Source of the DNA: Lampris incognitus
Taxonomy: Eukaryota; Chordata; Actinopteri; Lampriformes; Lampridae
DNA length: 64,000 nt
Assembly (NCBI RefSeq): GCF_029633865.1
Contig: NC_079214.1
Span: 30,884,457 to 30,948,456 of the forward strand
Reading direction: 5' to 3'
Shown here: positions 27,091 through 56,200 of the stretch, in pieces
Layout of the letters: every line of letters begins with the position of its first letter
Position numbering within the stretch: position 1 is the first letter of the stretch
The notes under the pieces: generated by a model
Databases searched by the model: none
What the model saw: the letters and a program-made list of their open reading frames with translations, nothing else
Told to the model about the DNA's origin: nothing
Program-made: the position numbers and the translations under genes

Positions 27091-28048
27091 TGTAACGTAC
27101 ACGAATAAGTAGACACGTTAGCTAATGGGTCAGACCCTTTAGTTGGCTAATGGGTCGGACCCTTTAGTCGACTGTTAACGTTGTCGCCCGCGGTGCGGGA
27201 GATAAGGGTTCGCGTGGCGGTTCCCGGGCTGCCCCCCCCCCCAAATTCGCTGCATTGGTGTCAGAAGTGGGATGGTGAGACCGTGAGGTCATCGGAAGCA
27301 CGTGCGCCCAGAGGCGTGAGGGAGCTGATATGCTGAAGCGCTTCCCGAAGGAGTGGGGTAGTGTAACGTGCATGGAAAGTTGACACGTTAGCCCTGGCTA
27401 ATGGCTTGGACCCTTTGGTCGACTGGTTAACGTTGTTGCCCGCGATGCGGGAGATATGGGTTCGCGTCCCGGCTGCGGCGGTTCCCACACTGCCCCCGCG
27501 ATGCGGGAGATAAATGCAGCGAATCAGGGGGGCAGCCCAGGAACCGTCACCACACGTGTCTACTTATCCATGCACGTTACACTACCCTCCTCCTTCGGGA
27601 AGCGCATCCGCGGGCATCCCAGTTCTGACACCAACGTAGCGAACTCAGGGGGGCAACCGAGAACCGCCACCACAGCCGGGACGCCAACCCGTATCTCCCG
27701 CACCGCAAGCGACAACGTTAACCAGCCGACTAAAGGGTCCGACCCGTAACGTGTCTACTTACCCGTGCACGTTACACTACCCCCCTCCTTCGGGAAGCGC
27801 GTCCCCGGGCTTCAGCATATCAGCTCCCTCACGCCTCTGGGCGCACGCGCTTCCGATGACCTCACGGTCTCACCATCCCACTTCTGACACCAATGCAGCG
27901 AATCAGGGGAACAAGCGCAGGAACCGTCGCCACAGCCGGGACGCGAACCTGTATCTGCCGCACCCCGGGCGACAACGTTAACCAGTCGACTAAAGGGTCC
28001 GACCCATTAGCCATGGGCTAACGTGTCTACTTATCCATGCACGTTACA
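27091..28048. mobile_element. TRIM-like LTR element, inverted compound array of five LTRs
   Basis: Reading left to right: LTR A (+) 27091-27254; internal 1 (+) 27255-27361; LTR B (+) from 27362, broken near 27504; LTR C (-) 27515-27581, lacking its tRNA-like part; internal 2 (-) 27582-27634, shortened; LTR D (-) 27635-27776; internal 3 (-) 27777-27893; LTR E (-) 27894-28048. Full LTRs start TGTAACGT and end CTACA or CTGCA. The primer binding site TGGTGTCAGAAGTGGGAT follows LTR A at 27256-27273 and is seen inverted at 27875-27892 and, with changes, at 27616-27633. A GGAG-GGGTAG polypurine tract precedes LTR B. The whole block is bracketed by ATAC at 27087-27090 and 28049-28052. There is no protein-coding capacity. 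Confidence 0.85.
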
Positions 28049-29542: not shown

Positions 29543-30472
29543 TTACACCTTTTCTTTTCGTATGAGTAAAACCACATCACTGATCGGCCTAAGGTACTCC
29601 TTTACTATCCCTTGGCTAACAGTCTTCACTGAGACCTTACGGACCTTACTGTCAGAGCTGGGAAAGGACTTAACTATAAGTCCAAGGGGCCACTTGTTAT
29701 GTTTGGAGTGAATGTCCTTCATCAGAATAACATCACCCTCTTGTAGGATAGGCATTTCCTTGGTCCACTTTCTGCGCAATTGAAGAGTTGCCAAGTACTC
29801 CTGTTTCCACCTTTTCCAGAAGGAGTCTGCTAAACTCTGGACCTGGCGCCACTGTACTTTGCACAAGTGATCCAATTCAAAGTCGCCTGGAGGAGTGGGC
29901 GTTCCTTTCACCTTCTGTGTTAGAAGAGCGGCAGGAGAGAGCATTTCGGGTATCTCTGCATCATATGAGATCGGAACCAGAGGTCTGGAGTTCATGATGG
30001 CCATAACTTCGGCCATTAAGGTAGTTAGGCCTTCATGGGTGAGTCTAATAGCTCCATCCTTCACCAGCAGAGCATCCAGGATGCGTCTGGCCACACCTAT
30101 CAATCTTTCCCATGCACCTCCCATGTGCGAGGAATGGGGAGCATTAAATGTCCATGTGCACCCCTGGTCTTGCAAGTAGCTTTTGATCTCTGGATCATCT
30201 GTGTTGATCTGCAGCTCTCTGCATGCACCGATGAAATTTGTGGACATGAAAAAGTCATGCTTCTGCCATGACTGGTCATGCGCCTCTGGCACTTCGTATT
30301 TCCATGGCAACCACATTGGGGGTCTAAATCTGAGATGTTTCACAGGTCCACGTATAGATAGGAAGCGCCTCAATGCGTTGATAAAACTCGAAGTTGATAT
30401 AGATTCGATAACTTCCAAGTGGACGGCTCTCGTACTTAGACAAGCAAATATGACGGCCCACCTTTTGCTCTC
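29543..30472 (-). CDS. BEL/Pao integrase, C-terminal part, with an internal 84-bp insertion
   Basis: The frame resumes immediately left of the Gypsy 3' LTR (the first words are AVIFACLSTRAVHLEVIES) and ends at a stop at 29543. It includes INALRRFLSIRGPVKHLR, TNFIGACREL, SSHMGGAWERLIGVARRI (catalytic Glu region), and a C-terminal domain with GDVILMKD and WPLGLIVKSFPS. Between HLR and TNF lies about 29 residues that do not belong to a BEL integrase. They replace the usual (S/C)DxG, so the second catalytic Asp is missing. The inserted DNA matches 28132-28215. Confidence 0.88.
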   Translation of the reverse strand, partial: ESKRWAVIFACLSTRAVHLEVIESISTSSFINALRRFLSIRGPVKHLRFRPPMWLPWKYEVPEAHDQSWQKHDFFMSTNFIGACRELQINTDDPEIKSYLQDQGCTWTFNAPHSSHMGGAWERLIGVARRILDALLVKDGAIRLTHEGLTTLMAEVMAIMNSRPLVPISYDAEIPEMLSPAALLTQKVKGTPTPPGDFELDHLCKVQWRQVQSLADSFWKRWKQEYLATLQLRRKWTKEMPILQEGDVILMKDIHSKHNKWPLGLIVKSFPSSDSKVRKVSVKTVSQGIVKEYLRPISDVVLLIRKEKV

Positions 30473-30663
30473 TGAAGTAATACTTGGGGTAGTATTGGTC
30501 GAGGATCAATGACCACACCGGGTTATAGAACTCAGGTTTAATCGCGGCTTGGTAGGCAGACGTAATAACCATACATGGTAGTGGTGTAACCATAATAACA
30601 GTCCGGGTAGTACATAACACCTAGTGTAGTTCCAGTGTATATACATGGCGTTATATCACTACA
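30473..30663 (-). repeat. Gypsy 3' LTR
   Basis: 191 bp, near-identical to 34975-35165. Confidence 0.95.
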
Positions 30664-30742
30664 TCCCCCCTGTTTAGTTTTAAATTTTTACAGTATCAAA
30701 ATACAAACATATTCAGAGCCCTCCTTTTGTGTGTGATTGTCT

Positions 30743-32851
30743 CTACTCATAGTCCTTGTAGTGAGCTGGTTTGGAAACAGCTCTTCCATATCTTGTGCGT
30801 ACTGTCTTGTGTGTTTCACAGGTTTGGCTGGAAGAAGTTCCAGCTACATGAGTGTCCCGTTGAGGTTCTGTGAAGCGGGTTCTTGTGCTCCTCAGTGCAT
30901 GGGGGTGGTGAATTTCCCGCAGGTGGCTCCTGCCACGTCTGAGTTTGTTCCCATTTGATGTTTGCACAATGTAGCTCCTTGGCTCATCGCACTTTTGTAC
31001 GATGGTGGCTGGATACCAAGTCCCTTTTTCCTTGTTTAGGACAGATATGTGCTGTCCGGGACCGAGTGGAGGTAGTTCTCTGCTGCTGCTGCGGTCATGA
31101 TGTTCCTTCATGTTTGCTGTTCTCTGCTCCAGGTGGAGTCGGTTTTCCTCCTTGCCTGGGTCCCCTCGACTCGGCAGCAGGGTGGTGACTGGCCTTCCGA
31201 AGATCAGTTCTGCTGGTGATGGTAGTTTACTGTTGATGGGTGTTGCTCTGACCTGTAGTAAGGCAACTTGTATGTTACCTCCTTGTCTCATGGTTTTCTT
31301 CACAATGGATTTGATGTGTCGCACATGCCTCTCAATGAATCCATTGCTTTTTGGATAGTGGGGTGAGCTTGTCACGTGCCTGATTCCCCAGTCAGCCGTG
31401 AATTTCTGGAACGCGTGCCCTGTGTACTGGGGTCCATTATCTGTAAGTATCTCGTCAGGCCTTCCAAAAAGAGACATGTACATTTCCATTTTTTGTGCAA
31501 CTGCCCGGCTGGACACAGGCATGGGCATTTCATCCACTAGAGGGAACTTAGAATATCTGTCCACAATCAGTAAATACTGATGTCCATCGATCTCGAATAG
31601 ATCAGAAGCTAGGGATTGCCATGGTTTTGACGGTGTGTTGTGTGGGTTGAGAGGTTGCTTTGGATTTGCATCCTGATGTTCCACGCATACGCTACATGAC
31701 CTGCAGACTCTTTCGATGTCATCGTTCATTCTGATCCAGTAGACACTTTCTCTCGCCAGTCGCCGTGTCTTTTCGATGCCCTGTTGTCCTACATGCAGCT
31801 GTTCGAGTATAGAATCAGTCATGGAGTCTGGGATGAGCACCTGTCTGCCTTTGAATATGACTCCTGCTTCAACTGCGAGCTCATCTCTGAATGACCAGTA
31901 CTCACGTAGTTGTCTTGGTAGAGCTTTGATGTTGTCTGGCCATCCCTGGTGGATCAGCTCTTTCAGTGCATTGAGTCTGGGGTCGCTGGTGGTTTCCGTG
32001 CGGAGTGTGTCCTGTTTCTCGGGAGAGAAGTTTATCATTGCAACAGTGAGCATCTCTGGATCCTCGACTTCTGCCTCTATTCCGTCAATGCGCTCGTCCA
32101 GCTCGATGTTGCTGTTGTTCTCAGGGTTGGGTAGTCGGCTGAGTGTGTCTGCCAGGACCATCTGGTTTCCTGGTCGATATGTGACCTCGTAGTTGTATCC
32201 TTGTGTTTTTATCAGCATTCGCTGAAGCCGTGGCAGGGCGGCATGCAGTGGCTTTGTGCATATGGTAACGAGGGGTTTGTGGTCTGTAACTACAATGAAT
32301 GACTTCCCATACAGGTAGGTATGGTATCGCTGCATTCCATAGACTATGGCCAGCATTTCTCGCTCTATGTTGCTGTACCTGGATTGGCAGTCATCCAGTG
32401 TCTTTGAGCCAAAAGCTATGGGTCTTTTGTTCTGCACTAATGCCACGCCCAGTCCTTTTTGTGATGCATCGACCTCAAGTGTCAGAGGTGTGCTTGGATC
32501 GTAGTACTTCAGGCAGTCATGTTCGTGGATAACTGATTTCAGGTCCTCAAAGCTCTTTTGGTGGTCAGTGTCCCATGTCCAAGGCACGTCACTTTTCAGC
32601 AGCACCCTCAGTGTGTGTGCTTTGTCTGCGAACTTTGGGATGTAGGATGACAGGTAGGTCAGCATCCCCAAGAATCTGCTCAGTTCATCTTTGTTCTGGG
32701 GTGTCGGCATTTTCTGGATGTCCCTGATTTTGGCTGGGTCAGGTTTGATACCTTTGTCTGTGTACAGGTTGCCAAAGAATGAGATGCTTGGCTGTTTGAT
32801 TGTGCACTTGTCACTGTTGAACACAATACCTGTCTTGGCTGCTCTCTCCAT
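30743..32851 (-). CDS. Gypsy RT end, RNase H and integrase
   Basis: A 702-codon frame to a stop at 30743. It has the RT thumb and connection (LSRFLGMLTYLSSYIPKF) and RNase H with LTLEVDASQKGLG, SNIEREMLAIVYGMQRYHTY and VVTDHKPL. The integrase has an HHCC zinc site (LHVGQQGIEKTRRLA, then CRSCSVCVEH) and catalytic ASDLFEIDG, LTDNGPQYTG and NGFIERHVR. The integrase catalytic triad is intact. The tail is basic and Ser/Thr-rich (HPHALRSTRTRFTEPQ) with no chromodomain that I can see. Confidence 0.93.
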   Translation of the reverse strand: MERAAKTGIVFNSDKCTIKQPSISFFGNLYTDKGIKPDPAKIRDIQKMPTPQNKDELSRFLGMLTYLSSYIPKFADKAHTLRVLLKSDVPWTWDTDHQKSFEDLKSVIHEHDCLKYYDPSTPLTLEVDASQKGLGVALVQNKRPIAFGSKTLDDCQSRYSNIEREMLAIVYGMQRYHTYLYGKSFIVVTDHKPLVTICTKPLHAALPRLQRMLIKTQGYNYEVTYRPGNQMVLADTLSRLPNPENNSNIELDERIDGIEAEVEDPEMLTVAMINFSPEKQDTLRTETTSDPRLNALKELIHQGWPDNIKALPRQLREYWSFRDELAVEAGVIFKGRQVLIPDSMTDSILEQLHVGQQGIEKTRRLARESVYWIRMNDDIERVCRSCSVCVEHQDANPKQPLNPHNTPSKPWQSLASDLFEIDGHQYLLIVDRYSKFPLVDEMPMPVSSRAVAQKMEMYMSLFGRPDEILTDNGPQYTGHAFQKFTADWGIRHVTSSPHYPKSNGFIERHVRHIKSIVKKTMRQGGNIQVALLQVRATPINSKLPSPAELIFGRPVTTLLPSRGDPGKEENRLHLEQRTANMKEHHDRSSSRELPPLGPGQHISVLNKEKGTWYPATIVQKCDEPRSYIVQTSNGNKLRRGRSHLREIHHPHALRSTRTRFTEPQRDTHVAGTSSSQTCETHKTVRTRYGRAVSKPAHYKDYE

Positions 32852-32859
32852 CAGGTTGG

Positions 32860-34550
32860 TCAGGTTCCTGTCATGCTCCTCTTCGCTTCTCCGTAGACTG
32901 TGATATCATCGGCTATGCTGACGACACCGTCGAGCCCTTCCAGGATTTGGTCCATCTTTGCCTGGAAGAGATCTCGAGAGACACAGAGACCAAATGGCAA
33001 ACGTTTCCAGCAGTATCTACCAAATGGAGTTCGGAATGTGGTTAGCAGTTGTGACTCTTCCTCTAGGTGTATTGACCAATATCCAGCTTTTGCGTCAAGT
33101 TTGCTGAATATTTTTGCATTTGCAAACTTTGGGTTCAGTTCCTCCACAGTAGGAATCTTGTGTGGGCATCTCCTAAGGCTGGCATTAAGCTTTTGGGGGT
33201 CTAAGCATATGCGAAGGGAACCGTCTTTCTTTGTGCTGTATGCCAGACTCGAGCACCAGTCTGTGTGCTGTTCTACTTTTCTTAACACATCTTGTTCGAC
33301 TAGGTTATTCAGTTCATCTTTCAGTTTGTCTTTGATGTGAATGCTGCACTTACGTGGTGGGTCTATGAATGGTTCAGCATCCTTTTTCAGGAAGAGCTTG
33401 GCCTTTCCACTGAAGTTGCCAATTTTGTCAAACTGGTCTGGGTATGCTCTCTTTAGGTCTGCACTGTTAGATATGGTCATTTTGGGTTTTGTCTGTCTTG
33501 TGTTGACTTTTTTCTGGTTTGCATGTCCTTTCTCAGTCACTTCATCTACATTGACAGTCACTAGGTTTAACAGTTCACATGTTGGCAGCCCCACTATAGC
33601 TGGCTGTGGTACGTCTACAACATAGAACTTTGCATTGATCCATTTGGATTCTTTGTACTGGCATGGAATGTCAATTGTGCCTAGGCAGGGGATGGCGTGA
33701 CCACTGTATGCAGATAGCCTCCTGTTGGTTTTTTTCAGTCGTTTCTGGGTGCATGCATTTTCACCGTACATCTGCTTGAAGGTACGCAATGGGAGTGTGT
33801 TGCCTGACGCACCTGTGTCTATCTTCAGACGTAGTGTGTATCCACGACCAGGTAGGTCAGGTGGTGTCACCTTCAGGACTGTGTACGCCTCCTCTCTGGC
33901 CGGCTTGCTGTCTATGCTATGCATGCACTTTTCACTGATAGTTATGGAGTGGAACTGTTTCTGGTAAGTACTTTCGTTCTCACTGTCTGTTTCACTGCTA
34001 CTCTCTACAGCATGTATGCGAGTCTTGCTCTGTTGCTTTTTGTCTATATAGGTTTTGCGCTTGTGCTGTTTGTCTTGTGGTGTGTGGGACTTACTTCCTC
34101 CGCTCCTACTCTGGCTGGAGTGTTCCTGGCGCTCTCGTTTGGCCTTCCTGCAGCACCGCTCCCAGTGACCTTTTGCACCACACGCATTGCATTCATCATC
34201 ATATGCAGGACATCGACGTGGTTTGTGGCTTCTCCCACAGTTACGACATATGCGGTCCCTGTCCACAGCGTGGATTCTCTCATTGTGTGACAGGCTAAGT
34301 TTGTCTAACTGTTCATTGCCTGCTGTCAGGGCTTCATATTTTCGTCCCTCGGCCAGAACCTCTGCTAAGGAATATCCTTTTGGTTTGCTGTATAGATCAT
34401 TCCTCAGGGCATCATGGGGAGTGCTCACAATAATAAGCTCAATCATACGCTCGTTAAGCTCTTCGTCTGAAAACTGACATTTCTGTGCTAGTGTTCTGGC
34501 TCTGGTCACAAAATCATCAATATTCTCATCTGGTTTCTGTGTTGCATCAG
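32860..34550 (-). CDS. Gypsy gag C-terminus, protease and first half of RT
   Basis: The frame covers the capsid end, two zinc knuckles (CRNCGRSHKPRRC and CNACGAKGHWERC), an aspartic protease with LKIDTGASGNTLPL, then RT with CLDPQKLNASLRRC, FSKLDAKAGYWSI (first catalytic Asp), RLPFGLCVSRDLFQ and VSIADDITVYG (catalytic ADD). The first ATG in the frame is at 34509, but homology begins upstream of it, as expected for a shifted gag-pol. The frame is lost just after the ADD box, near 32875. Confidence 0.92.
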
Positions 34551-34829
34551 TTGCAGTCTATGGATTCTGAAATTTACGTTCAACTTTAGCTGTTTTTCAA
34601 AGAAGTCCCATAGTTTGGCAGGCTTTTTCTTTTCATCATCAGTGAGACCACTGGCGTTCAGTCTTTTTAATCCTTCATCTCCGATTCCACGACATATTTC
34701 CCTAGCTTGTTTAGCTGCGCCATTTATTTCTTCATCTTCTAAATACAGAGTCATTTTCTGTTTATACAGTGAAATTGCCTCACCCAGGTCCGGGTCTGAC
34801 CAATTCATCGTCGGTAGATGCGATGCCAT
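34506..34829 (-). CDS. Gypsy gag, N-terminal part
   Basis: A 107-codon frame starts MASHLPTMNWSDPDLGEA and includes FKQ/YKQKMTLYLEDEE-type capsid sequence and KPAKLWDFFEKQLKLNVNF. The frame is lost in the last ~15 residues; the following frame picks up with QKPDENIDDFVTRA-like sequence. The break is an indel near 34540 and not a programmed site that I can recognise. Confidence 0.85.
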   Translation of the reverse strand: MASHLPTMNWSDPDLGEAISLYKQKMTLYLEDEEINGAAKQAREICRGIGDEGLKRLNASGLTDDEKKKPAKLWDFFEKQLKLNVNFRIHRLQLMQHRNQMRILMIL

Positions 34830-41971: not shown

Positions 41972-42918
41972 TATTCTGTCCTCGGCGCATGAGTTCTGTG
42001 CAGTGCCTAGACAGATAGCTAACACGAACGAGGGACAAAGCTTTCCACTGGAGTAGTTTAATCACTCGTTGCAATTTTTGTAAAACTGAAACACACAAAG
42101 CACAATGTGAACACATTAAAATAAGAATATTAAACAATTGTGACCTCAATTAACATGTTTCTTTTACAGGTACCCTCACCAGGATCAACATTCACAAAGG
42201 TAAGTACAATCCAAATTTCAACATAACAAACTTTTCCTATGTAACAATAAACTATAGCTCTATTAATAGAGAACTTCCTTCCAGTTTCAAATAATGATGG
42301 GTAAGTATATGGTAGGTAAACTACAGAGCACACTAAACAGAACAATGAATGTGATGCACAGCTATCAGCAAGTAACGTCAGGCTACCATGCACGAGGCTA
42401 GGCTAACGGTATAGAGCTAACACACACACACACACACACAACAACCGACGTAACGTTAAACACTCATAGAAACCCATGACTTAACTTTTCCCATAACACA
42501 CATTCATTTCTAACTTAAACACGAAATAACACCATTCTTACTGATAGATCTACTCTACGGGACACAAAAACAACTGTAGAGCACATCCCTTAACGTTAGT
42601 TTTCTGTTTTCAGGCGAACTCATACTGAAAGGAGATGCCGTTATGACAACATGGGCTGGCACCGCATCACTTCCTTGCAGGAGCAATAACCCTTCCGCCA
42701 GTAGGTGGGACTATAGTTTCAAAATACTGTAGCGAATTCGGGGGACAACGCAACCACAGGAATTGCCGCGGCCGGGAAGCGAACCCGTATCGCCCGCACA
42801 GCAGGCGACATCGCTAATCGCTAGACTAAAGGGTCAGACCCGCCAGCCAGCGGCCAGCGTGTCTTCTTATCCATGCACGTTACAAATACTAATAACAGAA
42901 ATGACAGGAGTCAGCACA
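41972..42918 (-). repeat. BEL/Pao 5' LTR with solo LTR insertion
   Basis: Same sequence as 28672-29514, interrupted at 42728-42884. The gag start codon lies 78 bp inside the element at 41894. Confidence 0.92.
42728..42884 (-). repeat. TRIM-like solo LTR inside the BEL 5' LTR
   Basis: A 157-bp LTR runs (minus) from TGTAACGTGCATGG to GAATTCGCTACA and includes the tRNA-like part with GGGTTCGCTTCCCGG. It is flanked by AATAC at 42723-42727 and 42885-42889. The sister BEL LTR at 29480-29495 has the uninterrupted site, so insertion with a 5-bp duplication is direct. Confidence 0.9.
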
Positions 42919-43058: not shown

Positions 43059-43626
43059 GGGCGTCCGGGTAGCGTAGCGGTCTATTCCGTTGCCTACCAA
43101 CACGGGGTTCGCCGGTTCGAATCACCGTGCTATCTCCGGCTTGGTCGGGCGTCTCCACAGACACAATTGGCAGTGTCTGCGGGTGGGAAGCCGGATGTGG
43201 GTATGTGTCCTGGTCGCTGCACTAGCGCCTCCTCTGGTCGGTCGGGGCGCCTGTGGGAGTGGGAACGCGTGATCCTCCCACGCGCTACTGTAACGACCAC
43301 GGATAACTAGACTCGCTGGCCCTTGGCTAACGGGTCGGTCCCTTTAGTCGACTGGTTAACGTTGTCGCCCGTGGTGCGGGAGATCCGGGTTCGCGTTCTA
43401 GCTGCGGCCGTTCCCGGGCTGCCCCCGAATTCGCGACACTACGTCACTGACACTACGTCCTCCCCAGCGAAACTACTCACTGTTAGGTGAAAAGAAGCAG
43501 CTGACGACTCCTCATACATCGGAGGAGACATGTGGTAGTCCGGATTGGCAGAGGGGGTGGAGCAGCAATCGAGACAGCCCAGAAGAATGGTAATTGCCCG
43601 GATACAATTGGGGAGAAAAAGGGGGA
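43059..43626 (+). repeat. tRNA-derived SINE family A, interrupted by a TRIM solo LTR
   Basis: The head has B box GGTTCGAATCA at 43114-43124. The body matches the other copies up to 43288 and resumes after 43442. The interruption is a 150-bp solo LTR (43289-43438) flanked by CTAC on both sides, a 4-bp target duplication. A few extra bases (a partial second CACTACGTC) follow the insertion. Confidence 0.85.
43289..43438 (+). repeat. TRIM-like solo LTR inside SINE family A
   Basis: A 150-bp LTR starts TGTAACGACC, contains TTTAGTCGACTGGTTAACG and GGGTTCGCGTT, and ends TTCGCGACA. CTAC flanks it on both sides (43285-43288 and 43439-43442). Confidence 0.88.
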
Positions 43627-51309: not shown

Positions 51310-51634
51310 CAGTCAGTACTGATGGGTAATGTAGTCGACTGAAGATATGAACTCCTCGCTATGTACTGTACTGATGGAGAAATGCGTTCTAATACCCGCA
51401 GGCTTTCCCAAAGTGCCTATACGTACCGGAATGCATTGCGCGCGAGCCTCCGTCGTCGCCCATAAATCCCTGCTAGTGTCGATGATTTGTTTTGGAATAG
51501 CGTCTTTAAACTACAACGGCCTGTAGTTTTTTCCGTCCGCCGACTGACGTCACGATTTGTCACCTGGTACAGAAAAGAACCGCCGCGCCAGAGATGTAGA
51601 AATGATCGGGAACAACAGCGGGTGTCTTTAATAT
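51310..51634. promoter_or_regulatory. CpG-rich patch with a consensus CRE
   Basis: Isolated CpG-rich DNA in an otherwise CpG-poor stretch, including GCGCGCGAGCC, TCCGTCGTCGCCC and a perfect TGACGTCA at 51545-51552. GGGTAATGTAGTCG near 51323 resembles, reversed, a ZNF143-type ACTACA-nnnCCCA element. It could be an orphan promoter (lncRNA or lost gene); no exon is identifiable. Confidence 0.35.
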
Positions 51635-53118
51635 TGTAACGTGCATGGATAAGTAGACACGTTCAGTGGTTAAATTGGGATTTCTGAGGTGGGGGATCCC
51701 TAGTTTGTGGAGGTTGGGACTAAGATGTGGCAGGAGCGGTGCCAATATAAATCAAAACACATATCACACTGATAGTAAAAAAAAAAAGGTGCTATTTCAC
51801 TGCTGTAACTGGAAGCTATTAAACTTCGGAAATAGCAGTCAAACAAATAATAAGCATACATTATATTCATTAATTTATTGTATGTCATTGTCATTGTCAT
51901 TACCATTACAATACAAAACACAATCTCATTTTCCCCCCCTGACATTGGTGGGGACACAAATTTTAGCACATACACAGCTGAGGTGTTTTGCGCGGGTAAA
52001 TTAGAGTGGTAATAAAAGAACGTGGTTTCAAACGAAAGCTAACTTTGCTTTCTGTGTAGCTAGCTAACTAGCTAGCTAGCTGTTTTCCTCTCCACACAAA
52101 TCCATTTTGCTCACTCAGACAAGTGCCCGCTAGCAACAATAGCTAATGTTAGCTGCCTGAACAGGGTTATATTTTTCTCTCCACACTGCCCACAAATCCC
52201 TTTATGTATTGCTCCCCAGCAGACAGCTATTTTTGCTTGCTATTAGTCTACAGACATATTTTTGCTATGGTATTGAACTGCCTGGATGCTAGATCTAGCT
52301 AGCAAGTTAAATAACCTATAATTTACCTCAGTCAATGCACGGTCATCTGCTCTACTTTGCTGTTCGCTTCTGAATTCTGAGCACGCTGTGGCACGCTTGT
52401 TGCATGACGTCTCCAGATCGCGCGCTGACACGAGACACAACAAACCAATGATGATGCAGCTTGAGTTTGCACTGCAGATGTCAGTGTGGCTCATTATTCA
52501 TCAACACCAGAGCACTCTATACGGCGCTGGGTATAGCCGAACCAACAACATTACTTTAGACTTATTATGAGGTGATCAATATTCTTTTTAATTTAACAAC
52601 TACAATATATTTCTATGACGATCTAATGTGCCGGAGCTGAGATCCGCTTGGTTCCAATTTTGATCCTAGGTGCCGGATCTCAGATACGGAAAGATCCGGC
52701 CCAATTTAACCCCTGGCACGTTTATCCTTAGCTAACGGGTCGGACCCTTTAGTCGACTGGTTAACGTTGTCGCTTGCGGAGCGGGAGACACGGGTTCGCG
52801 TCCCGGCTGTGGCGATGGTTCCCGGACTGCCCCCTGAATTCGCTACATTGGTGTCAGAAGTGGGATGATGAGACAGTGAGATCATCGGAAGCATATGCGC
52901 CCAGAGGCGTGAAGGAGCTGATATGCTTTAGCGCGGGGACGCGCTTCCCGAAGGAGGGGGGGTAGTGTAACGTGCATGGATAAGTAGACGCGTTGGTCTT
53001 TGACTGACGGGTCGGACCCTGTAGTTGACTGGTTAACGTTGTCGCTTGCGGAGGGAGACACGGGTTCGCGTCCCGGCTGTGGCGACGGTCTTCCGGACTG
53101 CCCCCGGAATTCGCTACA
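51635..53118 (+). mobile_element. TRIM-like LTR element with two LTRs, 5' LTR split by a hAT-like insertion
   Basis: The 5' LTR is in two parts, 51635-51663 and 52723-52847. The internal region is 52848-52965, and the 3' LTR is 52966-53118 (153 bp). The primer binding site TGGTGTCAGAAGTGGGAT is at 52849-52866. A polypurine stretch GAAGGAGGGGGGG lies just before TAG and the 3' LTR. Flanks are ATAT on both sides (51631-51634 and 53119-53122). Without the inserted hAT-like DNA the element is only about 425 bp. Each LTR carries an A-box-like TAGTCGACTGG (52750-52760; TAGTTGACTGG at 53022-53032) and a B-box-like GGTTCGCGTCC (52793-52803; 53063-53073). No ORF is present, so mobility would need enzymes from another element. 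Confidence 0.88.
51664..52715. mobile_element. Non-autonomous hAT-like element inside the TRIM LTR
   Basis: The left end CAGTGGTTAAATTGGG and the right end (reverse complement) CAGGGGTTAAATTGGG form terminal inverted repeats starting CAG, as hAT elements have. The flanks are GACACGTT on the left and GCACGTT on the right, an 8-bp target duplication with one base lost. The 1052-bp interior has no transposase frame, only short ORFs and a TAGC-rich patch near 52060-52081. Confidence 0.8.
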
Positions 53119-53178
53119 ATATTCTATCCCTGCTGCAGACATTTCGGCAATGTTGAACACAGCATAATTTACATCAGT

Positions 53179-53254
53179 GTGTGTGTGTGTGTGTGCGTGT
53201 GTGTGTGAGTGCGCACGTGCGCTCGCGTGCGTGTGTGTGTGTGTGTGTGTGTGT
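53179..53254 (+). repeat. (TG)n with CG-rich interruptions
   Basis: Alternating purine-pyrimidine tract including GTGCGCACGTGCGC. Confidence 0.9.
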
Positions 53255-56200
53255 GGGGCCCTTGGCAATATTCTGTTGTGTGTGCATTCAGAGTGGACGG
53301 TCGTTAAACCACCCACTGGAACAAGCTGTCACCATTTCCTCTTTTGTCCCCCTCCTTCCATCCATTCATCCTTCTATTTTCATTTTCTCAGCTAAGAAAA
53401 TTTACAAACATCGAGACAAACTTCATTACAAAATAAATTTGACCAAATTCTAGTATGGTAAACGCTCAAGCAAAATAACATTTTGTTCAATCCCTATCCA
53501 AAGGAATGTGTCAAATTGGTTACACTGAAACACGTGTGTGTCAGTTTCAGACAGTAATGAGACAGGGGTCAAAAGTGGAAGCCTCGTTTTAATTCATATT
53601 GCTCTACTGTAATAATCCTGAAAGGCATAGTCTGGAGTAACACGTAATGTTTCAACCCATAATAGTTTAAGTTACAGAATCATAGGTCTCTCTTTTTGCA
53701 TTGAACAATATATACAATGTCAAATAAATACATTTACACAAATGGACATTATTGTCGGAGCACACTTGTATGATACACGTCACAAAAATATACAGGTAAT
53801 TGTTTCATTTTTATTTATTTTTTTTCATTTACTGATGTGAAGCACATCTAAAATCTACGGACATGGTTTTATAATAACATTACAGGGTCTCCTGTCTTCA
53901 GCGACTCTCCTCTGCCAGGCAAGGGTCTTTTTTTGTGACTTAATATCCCTTTTTTAAATGCGTCTCTCTGAATATTTTTCTTCATATTCGCAGCTTAACA
54001 CTGCAGCCTATGTGGCAGTCACATTTGGGGATTCGATACAGCTAACAGACTAAACATGGTAAGAGCTGGCGATGGGACAGTTTGGCCATGGACGTGTTAA
54101 CTGGCTTCTCTCTCACATGGACAGTTTCTGTTTGTGTCCATTGCCAAGCAACGTGTCATAATATTCCAGCTAGAGGGCATTGTTACATATTTGCAGCAAA
54201 CAGTTCTTCTTTCTACAGATGGGACGGTAGCTGAGTATAATGCAACCAAGACAAAGTATTTCCATCAATGGCTGCACGAGAACCAGTGCAGTTCTCCCAT
54301 TGCTTCTGACAGAAATAGCGGTTTGCATCATCTTTTCATCGTTCACTTTGTTGATTCCTTGACTTTCATTGAAACTGCAGAATAAATCCAGCAAATACAT
54401 CAACATTTGAATCTATAATCCAGCACCAAAAAGTGCAATTTCTGTCTCGTTGCTGTACACTCTTTAATATTGCTTGTTAAATTGAATAAAACATAGGTCT
54501 GGGGGGGAAGAAAAGAAAAGAAAAACACCTTTTTCTACATCTAAACATGTAGAGAGCTAGTTCCATCAAACCTTCTGAAAGAGGAAGCAAACAACCTATC
54601 TCCTGATTTTAGCTGGCGGAATATTATTCTTTACTTTATTTTGAAATATTTTCAAAGAACACTGACTTTCACCATATGACAAGATGGGGCAGCATCCTTA
54701 AAGAAGCCTTATTTTCTGACAGTGACGTTGGTGAGAACTGGTATTTATCCAACTGCAAACACAAGACGGTCTCCAGTAAGTAACTGTTCCATGGCCGTGC
54801 TAATGTTAAGGCTTTTGCACTGTCGCTGAGATGATTTTGCCTTTAATTTGTAAGGATAACAATAATGTGATGAAAGCCATGTGTATAATCTTATTAGGAC
54901 CAGTTATAATCTTATATTAGGACCAGTGGCTGCTCTTGGGGTGGGGTGAGGGGTCGAAATTTCACACGATAAAAAAAAAAAAAACACCACGTCGTTTTAT
55001 CATGTTAACATTTCTTCTCAGCTCAGATCAACTCAGAGAGGCTTGTAACAACTTTCCCTTGCATGAATTATGCAGCGTTACACAGGAACGGTATGACAAC
55101 TGACAAGGAGAGAAAAACAAGAGGACAGAAGACAGACAACAAAACATTAAGAAAACAGCACCTTTCCTCCAGAAGTCATACCAGTGTGCCATAGATGATA
55201 TGAAATGCCAAAGTCATTCTGACACCAAGAAGGACTTGGGAGTATGTTCAGAGTGACACACTCGGAAAAGAAGTTCTTGTCATCGGGACAGGAACTACAA
55301 CACACTTGCACTTTCCTGCTATAAAGGTATATTTGTATATGTATGTGTGTTAAATATGTTGCTGACCTCTGATGGGTCTAAGGATGTGTAGATGAATGAT
55401 ATTTGCAGGTGGAATTGGCTTCTCTGTGAACACATGTAGGGCTCAGATATAGTCCTCATAAAACAATGTTGAATGTTAGTCTGGGTCTCTTGCTTTAACT
55501 TGAGCGGGAAGAAACCAAACAGGTTAAATTCTAATATGTTAGACTCAACATTCCCTTTTCTTTGACCAAGTCTTGCAGATGAATGGTCCTCATAAAAAAA
55601 GACACGGCCTGACACTTCACTTAAGTTCTACCACGAGAAACCAACTCACTCTCAGCTCTTCTGAAAGAAGACATTTTGCTAAGAGATGAACTGGAGGATA
55701 AACAGGAAACAAATATTTTAGGAAGTTTTACATCTCAGTAATCTCCATGTCTGCCAGTTGTAATATTAAAGATAATGATTGGGTGGAGTCTTACGGAAGG
55801 CAAGTTATGTACAGCGAGTTTATCAAAAAAAGAGTCACCTACGGTTCTGAAATACTCAAATATCCTTGTTCAATTCAACTTTATTTAAACCTAAAGATAT
55901 ACAGCGTATGGTTTATTTTACAAGAAAGAGTAGTTAGACAAATTATCCCTCTTTAAATATTTGTATGGTGTTTCTCCCTTTAGATAGTTGATATTTATTT
56001 ATGTATGTATAGCTTGGTAAGGATGGATACTGTAATTTGACCCTGTTGTTGCAGAACGTTTCTATAGGAGCCTTACGTTTGGTTTGGTTCACTGTGAGAG
56101 AATCCGGTGCACAGCCCCCCCCCCCCCCCCTGCAGAGTGATCCAACAGACAGAGAAGCATGGTCTCTACTCTACCCTGTGTTGTCTAAAGGAGAAGCACA

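Follow-up and report, generated by a model that had tools for sequence, protein, structure and literature searches.

How LTR elements without genes recruit an autonomous helper is an open question, and it is raised here by a short non-coding element at positions 51631–53122 of the window, the term used throughout for the whole 64,000-nucleotide stretch of DNA that was analysed. TRIMs with tRNA-like LTRs have been reported from fish, molluscs, wasps and fungi under the name Helenus, and zebrafish LTR-11_DR and its relatives in other fishes are listed among them (Kojima, 2024; PMC10886601). As described there, Helenus elements are non-coding, measure 311–1263 bp and possess two LTRs, in each of which boxes A and B (GGTTC) derive from a tRNA; tandem arrays and Gypsy-type primer-binding sites (PBSs) are reported, the animal families generate 4-bp target-site duplications (TSDs), and for these families the similarity of the PBS together with the TSD length led to the proposal that they are helped by Gypsy elements (PMC10886601). 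In this study, we describe the anatomy of the window element, its copies in the genome, hybrids in which its LTRs or body are joined to those of Gypsy elements, and the TSDs around them. We consider it probable, at roughly 80%, that the element belongs to a high-copy Helenus family that is helped in trans by Gypsy elements and that the hybrids are fossils of this dependence.

Structure of the window element

The stretch 51631–53122 reads ATAT, 5′ LTR, a 118-bp internal region, a 153-bp 3′ LTR and ATAT. The left TSD, read in the sequence (51631–51634), is followed by the first 29 bp of the 5′ LTR (TGTAACGTGC...; 51635–51663, plus strand), after which the LTR is broken by a hAT-like non-autonomous DNA transposon of 1,052 bp (51664–52715); the remainder of the LTR starts at the duplicated hAT target (approximately 52716–52847, plus strand). 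By eye, the transposon has 16-bp terminal inverted repeats (CAGTGGTTAAATTGGG) with one mismatch and a target duplication (GACACGTT) that has lost one base. Its first 137 bp found 18 other matches in the genome that cover most of the query, and four of the seven that were fetched are full length.

The remaining features all lie on the plus strand. The 5′ LTR contains an A-box-like motif (TAGTCGACTGG; 52750–52760), conserved in 152 LTRs, and a B-box-like motif (GGTTCGCGTCC; 52793–52803). The internal region (52848–52965), in which no coding capacity was found, holds an 18-nt PBS (TGGTGTCAGAAGTGGGAT; 52849–52866), which we take to be the complement of the 3′ end of tRNA-Leu, and a polypurine tract (PPT; 52950–52962). 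The 3′ LTR (52966–53118) again carries an A-box-like (TAGTTGACTGG; 53022–53032) and a B-box-like motif (GGTTCGCGTCC; 53063–53073) and is followed by the right TSD, ATAT (53119–53122). With the hAT-like insertion removed, the two LTRs are 92% identical (140/152) and the element measures about 430 bp. The PBS 18-mer, allowing up to three mismatches, was found four times in the window against 0.06 expected per window, so the element is not a chance assembly.

Much of this had been proposed in the initial annotation, and reading the sequence bears out its LTRs of about 153 bp with TG..CA ends, its PBS directly after the 5′ LTR and PPT before the 3′ LTR, its ATAT duplication and its tRNA-like A and B boxes in both LTRs. 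The element was also said to have no ORF, which agrees with the finding that the sole stop-free frame of at least 130 amino acids overlapping it (52885–53328, minus strand, 148 amino acids) extends into a microsatellite and has no match in a Pfam search. The span of 1,484 bp, by contrast, cannot be kept as the size of the element, the hAT-like insertion having been overlooked. The element placed at 51635–53118 is real, but that inventory of the window also missed further Helenus copies: a second insertion, a head-to-head inverted composite with ATAC on both sides (27091–28048), and two further LTRs (42728–42884, minus strand; 43289–43438, plus strand).

Separately, the window contains LTR-element coding remains on the minus strand (29546–34557) with reverse transcriptase, RNase H, integrase and DUF5641 domains. 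DUF5641 is usual in BEL/Pao elements.

Copies of the family in the genome

In the 1.48 Gb genome, the LTR query gave 2,561 first-look candidates, the best 40 of which were scored, all with E ≤ 3.4e-56, and the internal-region query gave 1,419, of which 40 were scored. RAG1 of this genome shares 85.1% identity (473/556) with PDB chain 3jbw_A, a zebrafish protein, and has a lower score against a chain labelled mouse, as would fit a ray-finned fish outside the cyprinids. The 29 loci fetched by LTR similarity (L010–L038) comprise 14 single LTRs and 15 loci with an internal region. Exact 4-bp TSDs are found at the LTR ends of eight of the 14 single LTRs, compared with a shuffled mean of 3.1 (none of 10,000 shuffles reached eight), and no A-rich tail was seen in their printed flanks; on both grounds they are solo LTRs. 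The initial annotation had allowed that most copies might prove to be single units with A-rich tails, that is, a SINE. The single units are the solo LTRs just described and the copies with an internal region have a PBS, a PPT and LTRs, and the SINE reading was rejected.

Canonical units consisting of an LTR, the internal region and a second LTR (n = 35) are 366–433 bp long, with a mean LTR–LTR identity of 88%. Exact 4-bp TSDs surround 13 of these 35, some of which are members of tandem arrays for which a TSD is impossible, as against 5.5 when the ends are paired by shuffling; in a further eight, three of the four bases match. There are 84 distinct internal regions with an adjoining 5′ LTR, 58 of them full length. 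Twelve of the 26 truncated 5′ LTRs, a set that includes the window copy split by the hAT-like insertion and one copy clipped by the edge of its locus, start at profile positions 24–39.

Some loci depart from this pattern. At 51–54 Mb of G000:C14 (L016, L017 and L031–L036), a Helenus internal region and LTR lie inside a larger repeat unit that matches at 97–98% over 2–3.1 kb of the fetched stretches. At two other loci (L071 and L072) the internal region has shrunk to little beyond the PBS and PPT, and GCGCGC or ACGCGC continuations after the PBS recur among the PBS matches listed.

Relationship to known elements

The family is short and non-coding, without a Pfam match, and has two LTRs; these LTRs contain tRNA-derived A and B boxes, the internal region a PBS for a tRNA 3′ end and a PPT, and the window element, canonical units and solo LTRs alike show 4-bp TSDs. 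The features of a SINE, a single unit with a 3′ tail and without LTRs, PBS or PPT, are not those of the family. Mobilization by Gypsy elements is favoured by an identical PBS and by LTR-swapped hybrids with two Gypsy families, a genomic line of reasoning developed below. By every anatomical criterion tested, the sequence of the window element is that of a Helenus-type TRIM.

The likeness in anatomy to the fish Helenus of the LTR-11_DR group, as described by Kojima (2024; PMC10886601), extends to TRIM size, A and B boxes in a tRNA-like LTR, PPT, 4-bp TSD, PBS types that include tRNA-Leu, copies in the thousands and tandem arrays. A figure legend of that article has fish Helenus aligned with tRNA-Val (PMC10886601). 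The view that this combination was undescribed in fish is therefore mistaken, since fish Helenus families are named there, whereas the proposal of a TRIM with a tRNA-derived LTR segment, analogous to Cassandra, is supported by the anatomy and by the A and B boxes. Cassandra likewise combines a Pol III-type promoter in TRIM LTRs with tandem arrays (PMC7215508). Its LTR segment derives from 5S rRNA and its hosts are plants, whereas the segment here is tRNA-like.

As a kind, the element is thus already known, and it is the fossil record of its replication that is unusual. LTR-swapped hybrids and inverted composites are not mentioned in the available parts of PMC10886601. A literature search, weak in that it was conducted largely at the level of titles and abstracts, returned no description of TRIM/Gypsy hybrids joined at the PBS or of palindromic TRIM insertions, and the occurrence of hybrid and mirror-image copies in one genome looks new.

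The tRNA-like segment

Across 152 distinct LTRs, conservation is among the highest in TTAGTCGANNGG and GGTTCGCNTCC, along with both termini. At a B-box position where A is nearly invariant, 142 of 150 copies have C. Colinear alignment with tRNAs was also observed: scored against eight tRNAs, all five LTRs tested exceeded each of their 200 shuffles, although in L073 the margin was one point (39, the best shuffle reaching 38), and they did so on the sense strand only, antisense scores remaining at background. A full tRNA fold was not detected, either in the window element by ARAGORN or the Rfam tRNA model, the latter to E ≤ 10, or in 20 further loci by the Rfam model at E ≤ 1, and a genuine tRNA gene is ruled out by the failure of either program to match. 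Because of this result and the C in the B box, the segment is best described, from its sequence, as a promoter-like remnant and not a tRNA gene. The initial annotation had foreseen that the region might score as background; for Rfam and ARAGORN it does, but for box conservation and colinear tRNA alignment it does not.

Transcription of the LTR by Pol III is plausible. The RNA would start near the tRNA-like segment, probably by the action of Pol III and possibly some 20–30 nt upstream of the A box, a position that we propose with less confidence. Alternatively, Pol II might transcribe the element from U3, the tRNA-like segment being left over from a SINE inserted into the LTR, an arrangement with which the unscored tRNA fold and the off-consensus B box would agree. 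A mere relic, however, does not readily account for A and B boxes that rank among the best conserved blocks of the LTRs or for the sense-strand alignment, in which every shuffle was surpassed in all five LTRs (in L073 by its one point). AATAAA, moreover, is absent from the window LTRs and occurs in one of the 152 LTRs overall, whereas the LTR of one Gypsy family considered below (Gypsy-B) has one. We regard the Pol II alternative as rather unlikely.

Two further candidate signals were discarded. TTTT is depleted in the LTRs (11/152 against 51.6 in shuffled sequences), but it does not count as evidence for Pol III because AAAA is equally depleted (3 against 14.2). The idea that the sequence preceding the A box forms an unusually stable hairpin was rejected after four sequences had been folded, their z-scores (−0.02 to −0.91) indicating no clear gain in stability over shuffles.

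Hybrids with Gypsy elements

The search for hybrids took PBS copies that do not continue into the Helenus internal region (311 matches in forward and 311 in reverse orientation), and the junction of the hybrids at the PBS is thus imposed by the search patterns. One PBS continuation belongs to a family designated Gypsy-B, with an LTR running from TGTAGCGAAG to TTCGCCACA, a PPT (CTGGAGGGGGTAA) and an 18-nt PBS identical to that of Helenus; the LTR starts with TGTAGCGAA, nine bases identical to the Helenus U5 end read outward. At least six of its 32 body junctions carry a complete Helenus 5′ LTR, the 13 that were fetched comprising six Helenus LTRs, one Helenus/Gypsy recombinant (L152) and six Gypsy-type LTRs, some of them broken; the remaining 19 read CGCCACAC.

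Both outer ends were seen in two of 12 Gypsy-bodied hybrids, the middle of these two having been fetched in part or not at all. The hybrid on C25, of which the ends and part of the body were seen, consists over about 5.0 kb of GTAT, a Helenus LTR, the PBS, a Gypsy body, a Gypsy LTR and GTAT; searched for protein domains, its body matches RVT_1 (E = 1.5e-33) in one frame and RNase H in another. The hybrid on C9, read from its ends with the middle not fetched, is a composite in which a Helenus LTR, a Gypsy body and a Gypsy LTR are followed by the PBS, the Helenus internal region and a Helenus LTR, with GTAT on both sides. In the hybrid on C12, a Gypsy LTR was not found in the fetched 3′ stretch.

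The reciprocal joint, a Gypsy-B LTR followed by the PBS and the Helenus internal region, accounts for 19 of 27 pattern matches, all of which were examined; of the other eight, seven are Helenus LTRs that differ by a base change and one is ambiguous. All 18 reciprocal hybrids read at length, as well as the 19th, run from the internal region into a Helenus LTR, several of these LTRs being broken, and in all 18 it is the 5′ LTR that is foreign. Of the 13 with both ends recognizable, nine have an exact TSD, compared with a shuffled mean of 3.08 (0 of 10,000 shuffles reached nine); three of the other four match at three of four bases and one, a tandem, has none. The upstream flanks of these 13 are mutually unrelated. 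Such hybrids are rare: set against the 657 junctions of the Helenus subfamily whose PBS is followed by GGAGCGACC, they amount very roughly to 2%, a figure that rests on 15 GGAG matches, 13 of them verified, with numerator and denominator patterns that are not identical.

Another Gypsy family, Gypsy-C (L069), shares this PBS, and of its 48 junctions at least six carry a Helenus LTR. Thirteen were fetched: of the seven ending in TACATT, six carry Helenus LTRs (palindromic in three cases) and one carries the Gypsy-C LTR, as do the remaining six, L069 included, one of which also has a fragment of a Helenus LTR next to it. The idea that Gypsy-B alone serves as helper is therefore refuted: Helenus swaps LTRs with at least two PBS-matched Gypsy families, and because both form hybrids the helper is not narrowed to one. 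Both families compared in this way are PBS-matched to Helenus. For another family, Gypsy-A (PPT TTAGAGGGGGAGA), no 3′ Helenus LTR was seen among the 100 of 750 junctions listed, all of which read TGTAATG. Three Gypsy-A PPT–LTR junctions at 75.78–75.80 Mb of G000:C1 have a spacing of 6,699 bp, suggesting a tandem Gypsy array, and a Pfam search of the first three Gypsy pieces yielded nothing beyond a single weak match, to a capsid domain, that fell below the cut-off.

The main competing explanation is that these structures are post-integration products of recombination or gene conversion involving Helenus and Gypsy copies at neighbouring or ectopic sites. Tandem composites do exist (L079 with its upstream sequence, L131 and L142), and recombination between neighbours is the usual explanation of complex or tandem elements (PMC6934838, PMC1950507). 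Such an origin is disfavoured by the exact TSDs, present in the nine reciprocal hybrids and in the two Gypsy-bodied hybrids with both outer ends seen; it also fits poorly with unrelated upstream flanks, with an identity at the joint that is essentially the 18-nt PBS alone and with the 5′ position of the foreign LTR in the 18 reciprocal hybrids read at length. We consider it decidedly improbable.

The hybrids suggest instead, together with the inverted composites described below, co-replication of Helenus with PBS-matched Gypsy elements. In such a scheme, Ty3/Gypsy elements would supply the proteins in trans, tRNA-Leu would prime reverse transcription at the PBS, and Gypsy integrase would join the ends and produce the 4-bp TSD. 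Second-strand (plus-strand) transfer from one molecule to another, mediated by the complementary PBS, could then swap LTRs in both directions, which would imply that Helenus and Gypsy cDNAs are made in one particle. We infer transfer at this stage because the whole LTR, including U3, is foreign and lies at the 5′ end, and because in the simple hybrids the body's own LTR is at the 3′ end wherever this was seen. Copy-choice on the RNA would be expected, by reasoning, to swap R–U5 only.

Composites with a single TSD are also known among the complex LTR elements of Triticeae, where they have been attributed to aberrant strand transfer involving RNAs packaged together (Sabot & Schulman, 2007; PMC1950507). 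The joints in that system pass through R and connect related elements, whereas those described here lie at the PBS, connect unrelated LTR families and are accompanied by inverted composites (PMC1950507). Joints at the PBS offer a view, from sequence alone, of the helpers with which a TRIM may share a particle, and the approach is applicable to other genomes. In soybean, autonomous elements and non-autonomous ones reportedly swap LTRs (Du et al., 2010), which, going by the title, is a further likeness in LTR exchange between partners.

Inverted composites

Opposite-strand Helenus pieces within 60 bp of one another occur at 17 of 57 distinct loci, the others being seven same-strand tandems and 33 simple loci; the 57 derive from two samples picked by internal region, with L053, present in both, counted once, and L087 is borderline. 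One exact TSD surrounds the whole composite at L040, L045, L054 and window 27091–28048, and three of four bases match at L057 and L059; in the other composites inspected, such as L028, L119 and L121, a TSD is absent or the ends are ambiguous. In a recurrent form, a back-to-back pair of U5–R pieces stands in place of the 5′ LTR, its outer end being the U5 terminus (TGTAGCGAATTC), the first nine bases of which equal the U3 terminus of Gypsy-B. Several composites have their outer left end at the U5 terminus and lack most of U3 in both arms. Palindromic Helenus pseudo-LTRs are also found on a Gypsy body (L156, L157 and L161).

Independent insertions of Helenus into Helenus, reflecting a nested target preference rather than aberrant reverse transcription, might produce inverted pairs, and the composites lacking a clear common TSD (L028, L119 and L121) and the many insertions in ATAT-like targets are what they would leave behind. 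They would not be expected to leave the single exact TSD around four composites, or the three-of-four match around two more, nor do they explain why several outer left ends coincide with the U5 terminus while U3 is mostly missing from both arms. This origin appears rather unlikely to us as an account of the class.

An origin during reverse transcription would draw on a self-complementary stretch of the LTR (positions 34–74, covering the A box and sequence upstream of it, detected as opposite-strand matches), in or near which the palindrome centres lie. Strong-stop DNA that primes itself, or is joined, at this palindrome might generate the inverted units, a step proposed with less assurance than those leading to the hybrids. 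The arms are 92–93% identical in L051 and L054 and 79% identical in L057, and arms that differ to this extent imply that the joining of two molecules would be needed at least sometimes. Taken jointly with the hybrids, these features permit a tentative reading, to which we would give slightly less than even odds: Helenus cDNA would be completed in Gypsy particles, plus-strand strong-stop DNA swapping bodies through the shared PBS, and minus-strand strong-stop DNAs would be joined, or prime themselves, at that self-complementary sequence to form palindromic U5–R/R–U5 pseudo-LTRs capable of integrating, even on a Gypsy body.

If this is true, the fossils name candidate helpers and hint at the start of the RNA without expression data; the inverted composites would give this hint if they were made from strong-stop DNA. 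As a map of the RNA start, the palindromes are only suggestive, because their inner arm ends scatter from LTR position 7 to 83 (18 ends in nine palindromes); 17 of the 18 lack at least the first 21 LTR bases. At two loci (L057, 2564–2662; L087, 510–607), palindromes of U3–R pieces occur on the 3′ side with the U3 end outward, the mirror of the 5′ palindromes.
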